Assembly (NCBI GenBank): GCA_030741055.1
Contig: JASLWC010000003.1
Location: 1-49,007, forward strand
Direction of reading: 5' to 3'
Length of the DNA stretch: 49,007 nucleotides
From: Prochlorococcaceae cyanobacterium ETNP18_MAG_14
GTDB taxonomy: Bacteria > Cyanobacteriota > Cyanobacteriia > PCC-6307 > Cyanobiaceae
The notes below the pieces were generated by a model. The model did no database searches and was not told the origin of the DNA. It saw only the letters and a list, made by a program, of their open reading frames with translations. The translations under genes were made by a program, and so were the position numbers. Of the stretch, positions 1,942 through 23,185 are shown in pieces (position 1 is the first letter of the stretch; the number at the start of each line of letters is the position of its first letter).

Positions 1942-2241
1942 GCCAAAGCGCTTATCAATAGGCTGGTAGTGGATAAAAATAAAATTTATGCTCATAAGCC
2001 TCTGCGATAGCAGAGTCGACCCGAGCCAACCTAACGAGCTACTTCTAGCCCCTCGCGTTCTAGGCCTCAATCGCAGGCTGGTTCATGGGTGGGCTTTTCT
2101 TTATCAAGAAGCTTGCAGCTTGGCCTCTATCAATTCAGCGAGAACATCTCGTCTAATCCACGAACGATGCGGCAGCTATTGCCGAAACCAATTCAAAACC
2201 CATGCACCCCAAAGGGTTGACAGCGCTAAGCTCTACCTGTT

Positions 2242-2255
2242 AGTACGTGTGTACT
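2242..2255 (+). promoter_or_regulatory. LexA (SOS) box, perfect consensus match
   Basis: AGTACGTGTGTACT satisfies every position of the cyanobacterial LexA consensus RGTAC-N3-DGTWCB and is symmetric apart from its four central bases. It lies 33 bases before the ATG at 2289 and 11 bases before another ATG at 2267. A promoter is expected to overlap it, though I see no strong -10. Confidence 0.6.
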
Positions 2256-2288
2256 GCATTAGATCTATGGCACTTGTCTCCTCTCCAT

Positions 2289-2579
2289 ATGCCACCTTCA
2301 AAGCTGAAGACTGGGCTGATGCATCAGCTCAGTCAACTTCCCAACAATATGCAAGAACGCCTGGGCACAAAATCCAAAAACGACTTACACAAAGCAATCC
2401 CAAAGTGGCTAAAAGAGCTAGAAACAATCTCCAGTGGTACGACTCGATACAGGGAGACCTCTTCCAAAATATCCAGCATTAATAGAAGCAATGCATTGCC
2501 TAACCAACAACAAGGCACAAGAGCAAAAGAAAAAACCAAGACAAAAAGAGCGGCATCTAATCAAGCAATTAATGCTTAG
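2289..2579 (+). CDS. Hypothetical small basic protein, possibly SOS-controlled
   Basis: The frame encodes 96 residues starting MPPSKLKTG. It is predicted to be helical in the first half (LMHQLSQLPNN, KAIPKWLKELE) and very Lys/Arg/Gln-rich in the last 30 residues. Codon choice resembles that of neighbouring genes, which favours this frame over the overlapping one that starts at 2267. No Shine-Dalgarno sequence is obvious. I recognise no family. The LexA box just upstream is the main reason to take it seriously. The C-terminal basic tail could bind nucleic acid, but that is speculation. Confidence 0.4.
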   Translation: MPPSKLKTGLMHQLSQLPNNMQERLGTKSKNDLHKAIPKWLKELETISSGTTRYRETSSKISSINRSNALPNQQQGTRAKEKTKTKRAASNQAINA

Positions 2580-4075: not shown

Positions 4076-4396
4076 ATGAGCAATCCCTTCCGGTTGCGGT
4101 GGTTAGAGGGTTGGACCTTCCAAATTGTTTTTATGGAAGGCAAAGTGCAAATTGAAGCTCATGGTTTTGGTATCTGTCTCCATACAGCATTACTAGCCAA
4201 TGAAAGCCCAAGTGCAGCGGCAGATCGACTCGTACTTGCAGAAGATCAGCGACGACGCAGCCTGCGCAATGCTTGGATTCGCGGTCAAGGAATTCAACAG
4301 CCTGCCAAGATCACGCTGCCTCCGCTGGAGCAAGCCATTCCTGATAGCCCTAGATCCCTAGTTATGGTGAAGCAGGAAGTTCCAGTAGGAGTCTGA
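4076..4396 (+). CDS. Conserved-type hypothetical protein, 106 aa
   Basis: The ATG follows GAAGGGACATC, a good ribosome-binding context. The protein is soluble, with a beta-rich start (RLRWLEGWTFQIVFMEGKVQIEAHGFGICL) and an Arg-rich helix (EDQRRRSLRNAWIRGQG). It looks like the small proteins typical of marine picocyanobacteria. I assign no function. Its 3' end faces the convergent gene at 4417. Confidence 0.65.
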   Translation: MSNPFRLRWLEGWTFQIVFMEGKVQIEAHGFGICLHTALLANESPSAAADRLVLAEDQRRRSLRNAWIRGQGIQQPAKITLPPLEQAIPDSPRSLVMVKQEVPVGV

Positions 4397-20173: not shown

Positions 20174-20187
20174 GGAACAGATGTACT
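20174..20187 (-). promoter_or_regulatory. LexA (SOS) box of umuD, perfect consensus match
   Basis: GGAACAGATGTACT is, read on the minus strand, AGTACATCTGTTCC. This matches RGTAC-N3-DGTWCB at all positions. It ends 25 bases before the umuD ATG at 20213, the expected place for a repressor of this SOS gene. Confidence 0.75.
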
Positions 20188-20212
20188 ATCAAGGCTGCTA
20201 TTGCGTGTCGCA

Positions 20213-20668
20213 ATGGATTTCACGCAGCACCCTTTGCCTCTGCGTTCTGAGCGCAAGCGACAGCCCCTGCCATTAGCAGGAGAGGACGTGGCAGCGGGAT
20301 TTCCCTCGCCTGCAGAGGATTACATGGAAATCGGCATCGACCTTAACGAACAACTAATTCGCCATCCGGCCAGCACCTTCTTCCTGCGTGTTAGCGGCCA
20401 CTCAATGACAGGTGTCGGCATCCACAATGGCGACCTATTGGTTGTAGATCGTAGCCTGGATGCACGACCCGGGCACATCGTGGTAGCAATTCTCGATGGC
20501 GCCTTTACGGTCAAACAACTTGTACGCCACCGTGGCGTACTGCGCCTAGAAGCTGCTAATTCCAAATACCCACCACTTGATCTAGTTCACTTCGGCGACG
20601 TGCAGATTTGGGGAGTAGCAGTGCATTCCATTCATAACCTCAGCACAGCTCGACAGGCTTCTCACTAA
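20213..20668 (+). CDS. umuD: DNA polymerase V accessory subunit UmuD
   Basis: The 151-residue protein is an S24 self-cleaving peptidase related to LexA. The cleavage site is Ala28-Gly29 in EDVAAGFPSP. The catalytic Ser is in SGHSMTG (Ser64) and the Lys in FTVKQL (Lys101). RecA-stimulated cleavage gives UmuD', which joins UmuC to form translesion polymerase V. A perfect LexA box precedes it. Unlike the E. coli layout, umuC is not the next gene but starts 1.2 kb downstream. ATG 20213 is preferred over TTG 20201. Confidence 0.95.
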   Translation: MDFTQHPLPLRSERKRQPLPLAGEDVAAGFPSPAEDYMEIGIDLNEQLIRHPASTFFLRVSGHSMTGVGIHNGDLLVVDRSLDARPGHIVVAILDGAFTVKQLVRHRGVLRLEAANSKYPPLDLVHFGDVQIWGVAVHSIHNLSTARQASH

Positions 20669-20848
20669 ATCTTGACGCAAACTTGCGCATAATTACACTA
20701 TTCAAAAGCGCAATGAGATTATCGCCAAGCACAAAGATAGTCATTTTGAATCTCCATAATAAAAAGGAAAAATGCAACAGATCCAATGCATAACGCATAA
20801 CTTTTATTCACCTAAATAGCGGAAGGCAACTGCACGATCAGATCAATA

Positions 20849-21370
20849 TCAACAAGAAGAATCTTTGATATCCCACAGCTTGTTAGTTAACCGACTAAGC
20901 CATTGGAGCCTCACTCGTTCTTCATCCGCCTCTTTATCTGAAGCCCAACTAGATATAGAGTGATGGAAAATGGCAGAGCACGCCTCATCAGGCCCCCTCA
21001 ACCAACCAAGGTCTTTAAGATAATCATGAACACACTCATCTACAAACAGAAACCAGTCTTGCAAACGGTTACTGCCATTGGCTTTAATTGCTTTCTGCTG
21101 GAGCGCCGAAGCTCCATCAGGCGACTCAATAAGACCATGTACAGCCAAGATCTCCTCCCTTAAATCGAGCCACTCGCAATCACCCCTTAATTGAAGATCA
21201 TAATAACGTTCACGGAACTGATTGTCTTCCTTACAAAGCCATTCTATCCACGCTTCTTCCATTAACTCCTTGATCTCTTGCTTATCTCCTCTAGATAGCC
21301 ATTCAGAAAAGGTTGTTTTATTAATTCTTTGGATAATGTTTTGCTGATGATTAGTCAAAGTTGGTGTCAT
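20849..21370 (-). CDS. Unknown protein between umuD and umuC
   Basis: This 173-residue protein is rich in Trp and acidic residues (FSEWLSRGDKQEIKELMEEAWIEWLCKEDNQF, LQDWFLFVDECVHDYLKDLGWL). It is predicted to be helical and soluble, and I recognise no family. It is transcribed opposite to umuD and umuC and is flanked by gene-free AT-rich DNA on both sides. That pattern suggests an insertion into an ancestral umuDC operon. The start ATG (MTPTLTNHQQN) follows a weak ribosome-binding site. Confidence 0.6.
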   Translation of the reverse strand: MTPTLTNHQQNIIQRINKTTFSEWLSRGDKQEIKELMEEAWIEWLCKEDNQFRERYYDLQLRGDCEWLDLREEILAVHGLIESPDGASALQQKAIKANGSNRLQDWFLFVDECVHDYLKDLGWLRGPDEACSAIFHHSISSWASDKEADEERVRLQWLSRLTNKLWDIKDSSC

Positions 21371-21667
21371 CTTAATCCTTTTGTCTTGTCAGTTTTTGCA
21401 TCAGCTCCGTCGAACACCTCCGCCCGAGAAAAGCTACTAAAGGCTAATCACATTAGCCACACACTACTTCGAGATCAGACACAACCGCATTAATGTGCAA
21501 AGGATAAACCAGTCAATAGTTGAGTGGAGCAGAGAGCGAAGCAACGCCTAGATCGCCATACACCACTAGCAATGTAGACATAAGCCTGGATTCACCTAAG
21601 TCAAACTTGACACCGAGCAGGCATCCTCTATTCCAAGAAGTCACCAGGCCACAACAACGGGTTTAAT

Positions 21668-21697
21668 GATGGCGGACTTGATGATGGCGGACTTGAT
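21668..21697. repeat. Exact 15-bp tandem duplication
   Basis: The unit GATGGCGGACTTGAT occurs twice head to tail with no mismatch, in the non-coding DNA between the unknown minus-strand gene and umuC. It looks like recent replication slippage. Confidence 0.85.
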
Positions 21698-21858
21698 GCA
21701 AACAAGTAATAACAAAACAATCAAACAACTAATCGAGAGCACTATTGAGCACAAACCTGCATACGCATTCTTCTGGCCACATAACCGACAACTATCACGA
21801 AGGGCACCGCAGCAGAGCGCCACTCCACCATCAGGCAACCCGCCATCAGTCGGTCTAT

Positions 21859-21872
21859 AGTACAATTGCACT
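21859..21872 (+). promoter_or_regulatory. LexA-like box of umuC (one mismatch)
   Basis: AGTACAATTGCACT is a near-perfect palindrome around CAATTG. It differs from RGTAC-N3-DGTWCB at a single position (C for T in the second half-site). It lies 38 bases before the umuC ATG. Because umuC has its own operator, it can be SOS-induced independently of umuD. Confidence 0.6.
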
Positions 21873-21910
21873 ATCCATAAGCATTGTTTGGCTAGTTTCC
21901 GCTCAACGCC

Positions 21911-23185
21911 ATGCCACAGGCCACCGCCTTGATCGATGGCAACAACTTCTATGCCGCCTGTGAGCAAAGCCTTGATGCCTCACTAGGTAATCGCCCCTTG
22001 GTAGTGCTCTCCAACAACGATGGCTGCATTGTTGCCCGCAGCGCCGAGGCCCGCGCTCTCGGCATCACCATGGGTACGCCCTATTTCAAGGTTCAAAGTG
22101 AACTGGAGAGATTGGGCGTAGTAGTGCGCAGCTCCAACTACGCCCTCTACGGAGACATGAGCCAACGGCTGATGACTTTGCTAGAAGCTCATTGCGAAGA
22201 ACTAGAGATCTATTCCATTGACGAAGCCTTCGCCCGCATCAGTCGACCCGCCGATTGCAACCTAAAGCCCTGGGCTCGTCAACTACGGGCCCGAGTGCAT
22301 CACAACCTTGGGCTGCCAATAGCCATCGGTCTTGGTGCCAGCAAAAGTCAAGCCAAACTCGCCAACCACCTAGCCAAGGCAATACCTGCTCATGCCGGTG
22401 TTTTCGACCTAACCACTACTAACAATCCAGATGCATGGCTCGAAAGCATCGCTATCGAAAATGTGTGGGGCATTGGCCGCAAACTATCCCAATGGTGTCG
22501 ACTTAAGGGCGTAACCAATGCCCGACAACTACGTGATATGCCACGCAGCCAACTTCACTCCCACTGCGGCGTAATCGGCTTACGTCTACAACGAGAATTA
22601 CAAGGCCACGCTTGCCTGCCTCTAGCCCTGGCTCCGTCGCCAAAACAAGAAACCTGTGTTAGCCGTAGTTTCAGCAGCCCAATCACAAGCCTGGAGGAAC
22701 TACGACAGGCAGTTGCAACCTACGTGGTGCGAGCCAGTGAAAAACTAAGGCGCCAACAGCAACAAACCAAATCACTAACCGTATTCACACGCACCAGCCC
22801 CTTCGCACCATCGTTTTATAGCCAAGCAGCTACGACCCAACTAGACCTGCCGAGCAACGACACTGCGGTCTTACTAGCAGCAGCGCTACCACTGGTAGAG
22901 CGAATCTTTCGTCCCCATCGCCGCCTAAGTAAAGCCGGGGTGCTGATGCAAAACCTACAGAGCACAGACCATCTTCAACAACACCTACTGGCAGCAGTCA
23001 GCACCGATACACAGCAACGCCGTGATCGACTAATGAGCGTCATCGACCAACTCAACTGTCGCTACGGCAGCGGAACTGTGCGCTGGGCCGCCTGCGGCAT
23101 GCAGCCAAGATGGAGCATGCGTCGTGACCAACTCAGCCGCGCTGCTACAACCCGCCTCAATGACCTGCCATTAGTTCTGGCCTAA
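21911..23185 (+). CDS. umuC: DNA polymerase V catalytic subunit UmuC
   Basis: This 424-residue Y-family translesion polymerase has ALIDGNNFYAACEQ (first catalytic Asp), VVLSNNDGCIVARSAEARALGI, the palm motif YSIDEAFARI, and helix-hairpin-helix elements around NVWGIGRKLSQW. The little finger domain follows, from about residue 235. Length equals E. coli UmuC (422). It acts with cleaved UmuD'2 at stalled forks. No partner gene follows on this strand. Confidence 0.96.
   Translation: MPQATALIDGNNFYAACEQSLDASLGNRPLVVLSNNDGCIVARSAEARALGITMGTPYFKVQSELERLGVVVRSSNYALYGDMSQRLMTLLEAHCEELEIYSIDEAFARISRPADCNLKPWARQLRARVHHNLGLPIAIGLGASKSQAKLANHLAKAIPAHAGVFDLTTTNNPDAWLESIAIENVWGIGRKLSQWCRLKGVTNARQLRDMPRSQLHSHCGVIGLRLQRELQGHACLPLALAPSPKQETCVSRSFSSPITSLEELRQAVATYVVRASEKLRRQQQQTKSLTVFTRTSPFAPSFYSQAATTQLDLPSNDTAVLLAAALPLVERIFRPHRRLSKAGVLMQNLQSTDHLQQHLLAAVSTDTQQRRDRLMSVIDQLNCRYGSGTVRWAACGMQPRWSMRRDQLSRAATTRLNDLPLVLA

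Follow-up and report, generated by a model that had tools for sequence, protein, structure and literature searches.

A small LexA-boxed protein family with a clamp-type tail motif in marine picocyanobacteria

The locus downstream of glnA

The window analysed in this study is a 49,007-nt stretch of contig JASLWC010000003.1 from Prochlorococcaceae cyanobacterium ETNP18_MAG_14 (genome G000). Between glnA, which ends at 1941, and a methyltransferase-like gene (gene names by inspection) lies a LexA-type box, which overlaps the probable -10 element of a promoter with TTGACA at 2217 and precedes a small gene (Table 1). The gap up to the next gene carries nothing else, as an earlier note on this DNA had observed, and an Rfam search of the window gave no RNA family match.

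Table 1. Coordinates of the features at the locus, in window positions
Feature	Position	Strand	Basis
-35 element TTGACA	2217..2222	+	pattern search; also seen upstream of family members
Probable -10 element TAGTAC	2241..2246	+	by inspection; 18 nt spacing from TTGACA
LexA-type operator AGTACGTGTGTACT	2242..2255	+	pattern match, exact AGTACN4GTACT
Gene for the 71-aa small protein, putatively LexA-controlled	2267..2482 (stop codon included)	+	homologue searches, dN/dS
Codons of conserved N-terminal block SPYATFKAEDW (residues 6-16)	2282..2314	+	comparison of family members
Codons of clamp-type motif QGDLF (residues 62-66)	2450..2464	+	comparison of family members; compared with DnaE
96-codon frame of the earlier note, rejected as gene	2289..2579	+	stops in congeners, dN/dS
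N-terminal peptide of the 71-aa protein, SSPYATFRAEEW			
C-terminal peptide of the 71-aa protein, SIQGDLFQNIQH			

The box is the sole zero-mismatch AGTACN4GTACT within the window, and the assembly (1.54 Mb) holds three exact matches, namely this site, one on contig C55 and one on contig C92. The arrangement TTGAC-N16..19-TAGTACN4GTACT was found a single time in the window and never in 100 shuffles. The cyanobacterial LexA consensus is given in the text of PMC3091678 as AGTACWNWTGTACT; the arms of AGTACGTGTGTACT match it perfectly and the core GTGT departs from it, so that the perfect box claimed earlier is perfect in its arms and not in its core. LexA bound at this operator would cover the -10 element. 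The C55 copy of the gene adjoins a second glnA and encodes a protein identical to that of the congener G001, and the glnA locus is present in two versions, on contigs C55 and C74 of the same assembly; the bin thus probably mixes two strains.

The frame that the earlier note took for the gene, 96 codons beginning at 2289, is indeed open in the window. The frame from the ATG at 2267 encodes 71 aa and runs one base out of phase with it, and the note had proposed a substitution test of both frames and a search in relatives. Both were run. Between the window and G001, 16 of 30 differences fell at third positions of the 71-aa frame, with a dN/dS of 0.233 as compared with 0.74 in the 2289 frame; the corresponding values between G003 and G004 were 0.226 and 0.79. 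When the 96-aa protein was searched in six relatives, its frame was open but ended early in G001, its matches in G003 and G004 were interrupted by 2-3 internal stops, and the other three relatives gave no match. Because dN/dS is low in the 71-aa frame, a sign of purifying selection, and the 2289 frame is stopped or absent in relatives, the gene is placed at 2267-2482. The matches to the 96-aa frame are best read as a shadow of the 71-aa frame. A weak resemblance of the 2289 frame to phrog_5818, of function unknown (E 0.0034), can be set beside its being open here, and we give next to no credence to its being the gene. Once the frame is exchanged, the earlier view holds: a LexA-type operator precedes a gene for a small basic protein such as SOS effectors often are.

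Distribution, conserved blocks and upstream boxes of the family

The single-sequence search with the 71-aa protein found a match in 8 of 60 genomes. With a nine-row profile, matches were found in 212 of the 400 genomes of the cyanobacterial family (E 0.01), and with a fifty-row profile in 264 of 400 (E 0.001), covering 46 of 59 genera and 177 of the 251 good genomes; the protein is thus not the orphan that it had been taken for. Among 291 genomes drawn from the class, 30 were positive, and all 30 were its own or belonged to the same genus or the same family. The named matches (27 loci) came from Prochlorococcus, Synechococcus, Vulcanococcus and uncultured relatives. A family under purifying selection across marine picocyanobacteria is well supported by these sequence comparisons.

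Searches of Pfam and NCBIfam gave no match above the curated cut-off and no SulA-like family up to E 1, PHROGs and PADLOC gave nothing for the 71-aa protein at E 0.1, and no chain among the PDB sequences matched it at E 1. A phage origin was considered and rejected, with no relative in phage records, in viral contigs (searched with profile A1 or the protein itself) or among the PHROGs.

A total of 119 unique proteins were read, namely the part of the nine-row-profile matches that came with loci together with 80 more; a further sequence was discarded for its internal stop, and the match at G018:C9 gave no motif. One of the 119 (L031:2349-2663) is a spurious frame, which leaves 118 genuine members. 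The conserved blocks are two, the N-terminal SSPYAxFRAxxW and a Q-motif close to the C-terminus, and the rest of the protein drifts. Conservation of the N-terminal block equals or exceeds that of the tail (S, P and Y in 119/119, W in 114/119). The Q-motif reads [IV]QG[DE]LF in most Synechococcus and in the relatives of the window, and QLAFA or QLVFA in most Prochlorococcus. By these motifs 64 proteins were classed as A-types and 51 as B-types, four of the 119 (the spurious one included) being neither.

Qx[DESN]LF is present in 58 of the 64 A-types, mostly as IQGDLFQ, and in the remaining six the motif is damaged, with L replaced by H in five and the sequence IQGVLS in one. Among the B-types, all from Prochlorococcus, 50 of 51 end in [VIF]QL[ASTV]F plus one residue, 34 of them as HVQLAFA; the remaining one (L156) has QLTL followed by a longer tail. 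At least three members have no Q-motif of either kind. Two members of genus g18, found as weak profile matches, read SSSPYA[TP]FNSKEW...QMQLVF[AG] behind two near-boxes; their tails end in QLVFA or QLVFG, and no Cys-rich domain (see below) was seen in the sequence of one. In five proteins (L008, L016, L019, L041 and L043), IQGDLFQ is accompanied by a later RQLSFG[GE]L ending, giving two Q-motifs per protein. The family structure model has low confidence throughout (pLDDT 57), and on that ground the 71-aa protein is probably disordered.

For the box test, members were picked by the N-terminal motif, blind to the presence of a box. A relaxed LexA-type box was found in the 75 nt upstream of 117/117 such members, and a box with no more than one mismatch in 88/117, counts over proteins linked by descent and hence not independent events. 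Random 75-nt windows of the same loci, boxes included, gave 1.7% and 1.3%, respectively. The earlier note had named, as what would refute it, conservation of neither frame, or frame-destroying changes in close relatives together with loss of the box; the 2267 frame is conserved across the family, and a relaxed box accompanies it in every selected member. By type, the relaxed box precedes the start in 64/64 A-types and 51/51 B-types, and TTGAC[AT], one mismatch being allowed, lies upstream in all of the same 64 and 51, a figure for the -35 element that has no chance control. Counted from the first base of the box, the start codon is most commonly 25-28 nt away, and farther where there is a second box or another start; several Synechococcus carry a tandem pair of boxes. 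Predicted LexA control of the small gene is well supported at the sequence level.

In 44 of 51 B-types and in 0 of 64 A-types, the stop of the small gene overlaps, in another frame, the CMTCQHF stretch of a Cys-rich domain (VCMTCQHF...LIPHGEHL...CPLW...EIGWCPEAA), of which an EEWDYLE..L..SRSA stretch extends back into the small gene. An example is L032:4001-4198 with 4081-4359, which, like 43 other B-type loci, shows an ATGA-type stop/ATG overlap. Across the last seven codons of the B-types, the codon-position entropies are 0.31/0.24/0.63 and follow the small-protein frame, and over the ten codons that precede the tail they are 0.69/1.23/0.87 and follow the Cys frame. Both overlapping frames therefore appear to be selected, in different stretches. 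The idea that the QLAFA tail is a by-product of the overlap was set aside as unlikely, the last seven codons varying at their own third positions and the ten before them at second positions, where the Cys frame has its wobble; because the variation of the last seven follows the small-protein frame, the B-type tail seems to be kept for its own sake.

The Cys-rich family on its own was matched in 124 of 151 genomes, with up to eight matches per genome, and among the 26 copies read, 23 lie within 450 nt of a box that has no more than one mismatch. To judge by these boxes, it is a second unannotated LexA-boxed family. Its pattern is EEWDYLE..SRSxxVCMTCQHF..LIPQGEHL..CPxW..EIGWCPEAA (L003:1527-1805, L158-L187 and B-type loci such as L032:4081-4359), and its structure model reached a pLDDT of 45. 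In the genome of the window, the Cys-rich gene (L003:1527-1805) lies on C92 behind an exact box.

In G244, which we tentatively take to be strain CC9311, the small-protein gene is at 1.635 Mb, umuC is at 1.477 Mb, and a Cys-family gene is found 12.5 kb from umuC (G244:C1:1477175-1489938). In the text of PMC3744912, where umuC is sync1607, the genes that mitomycin C switches on include recA, lexA and umuC as well as unnamed ones. If our identification of G244 holds, its Cys gene is close to the cluster described there as mitomycin-induced, downstream of umuDC. The mitomycin-induced sync1474/SYNW1405 of the same text was considered as a member of the small-protein family; if G244 is CC9311 and numbers follow position, a gene numbered 133 below umuC would be expected on the other side of umuC, which would speak against membership. 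The text of the literature on picocyanobacterial LexA regulons, regulon tables aside, yielded no paper naming such a protein.

The tail motif and its possible function

DnaE of six related genomes reads QGNLF (five genomes) or QGNLL (one) at the place of the clamp motif, and UmuC of the window reads TTQLDLPSND; both places are presumed, from position, to be clamp sites. The QGDLF tail is one residue off the replicase QGNLF. The bacterial clamp consensus is QL[S/D]LF, often C-terminal, as described in PMC3716654 and PMC9690074; QLAFA fits it less well and departs at positions 4 and 5. Across the family, Qx[DESN]LF is found in 58 of the 119 unique proteins, as compared with a mean of 0.12 and a maximum of 2 when C-terminal parts were shuffled, most Prochlorococcus having QLxF tails instead and six A-types the damaged forms. 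The codon-position entropies across [IV]QGDLF are 0.14/0.06/0.98, which points to selection on the peptide itself. A motif of five residues is a weak sign of the partner, and clamp binding by the tail is the likeliest reading of it.

The reading we prefer is that of an SOS-induced protein occupying the beta clamp and thereby restraining or redirecting replication. That the gene is LexA-repressed and its protein made during the SOS response, taken jointly with clamp binding, may well be true, though we stop short of calling it probable. SOS derepression would supply a bulk of short, free, basic protein after damage; its QGDLF-type tail would bind the clamp in competition with Pol III, and this competition would slow forks and so allow repair or Pol V both time and access.

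An adaptor would also use the clamp: the Q-motif would hold it, and SSPYAxFRAxxW would recruit Pol V, RecA or a nuclease to damaged forks. The strong conservation of the N-terminal block counts in its favour, as does the presence of umuD and umuC in the same window with a near-box before umuD, but the block has no known partner motif and umuDC is 18 kb away and not in an operon with the gene; we regard an adaptor as rather unlikely. In the umuDC region itself (20174-23185), the near-box GGAACAGATGTACT precedes umuD (ATG at 20213), umuC follows at 21911, and a minus-strand frame at 20849-21370 splits the pair. Between the two uses of the clamp, we lean somewhat towards inhibition over recruitment, given that the protein is short, free and expected to come as a burst. 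SocB, as described in PMC9690074, offers a precedent for a replication inhibitor that binds the clamp.

A division inhibitor or nucleoid binder, as guessed in the earlier note, would have the tail as a docking or stability signal for a non-clamp partner. The protein is indeed small, LexA-boxed and basic, with a net charge of +1 to +11 in 118/118 members. Inhibitors of the YneA, SidA and SosA type carry a membrane-spanning helix, and a membrane-grade segment (19-residue Kyte-Doolittle mean of at least 1.6) was found in 0/118 members; moreover, outside the N-terminus it is QGDLF and not a basic stretch that is most conserved, which points rather to the beta clamp and makes this role improbable. 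SOS effectors are often short-lived, and the B-type end QLAFA/QLVFA could be a degradation signal for a short life, with QGDLF as a separate A-type feature. Such a signal would suit the B-types that stop one residue after QL[ASTV]F (50/51), but the residues past QGDLF vary in A-types, so that the function shared by all members cannot be that of a degron at the C-terminus, and we think there is little chance of it.

Returning to clamp occupancy, the fuller proposal is that a dedicated SOS protein, produced in free form, takes over the clamp with a motif borrowed from the replicase (QGNLF/QGDLF) and thereby restrains replication after UV damage, which we advance tentatively and as the less likely outcome. 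Few photosynthetic cells are as abundant as picocyanobacteria, which are exposed to strong UV, and a protein so widespread, LexA-boxed and ending in a clamp-type tail, would be a possible protein-level brake and would add an unannotated family to the regulon. UV delays chromosome replication and S phase in Prochlorococcus, a delay which the text of PMC2921402 ties to lower dnaA, ftsZ and sepF transcripts, the lower dnaA being offered as a sufficient cause. The 71-aa protein, if the proposal is true, may be one cause of this delay, a link put forward as a hypothesis only since those authors deem the dnaA drop sufficient.

Comparison with known systems

The 71-aa gene shares its operator type with the predicted cyanobacterial LexA regulons (PMC3091678, PMC3744912), in the text of which, tables aside, the family is not described. 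UmuD and UmuC are LexA-boxed and clamp-directed, as is proposed for the 71-aa protein, the clamp motif of Escherichia coli UmuC being QLNLF in the text of PMC3716654, whereas the 71-aa protein has no polymerase or peptidase domain. Like SulA, YneA, SidA and SosA, as these are described, it would be a small SOS-induced effector, but, unlike them, it matches no known family, lacks a membrane helix and has a clamp-type tail.

SocB of Caulobacter crescentus stops elongation through the clamp cleft with a clamp-type motif (text of PMC9690074), much as is proposed here. The two are likened by description, and SocB belongs to a toxin-antitoxin pair, as its toxin, whereas the 71-aa gene lies behind a LexA operator and no neighbouring antitoxin was seen. 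Eukaryotic p21 is induced by damage and is unrelated in sequence to the 71-aa protein, and its clamp is a different one. As an analogy only, p21 also acts through a short motif on the sliding clamp, and p21 peptides bind PCNA (text of PMC9690074); if the proposed clamp occupancy is true, the picocyanobacterial protein would be a bacterial counterpart of p21 on PCNA.
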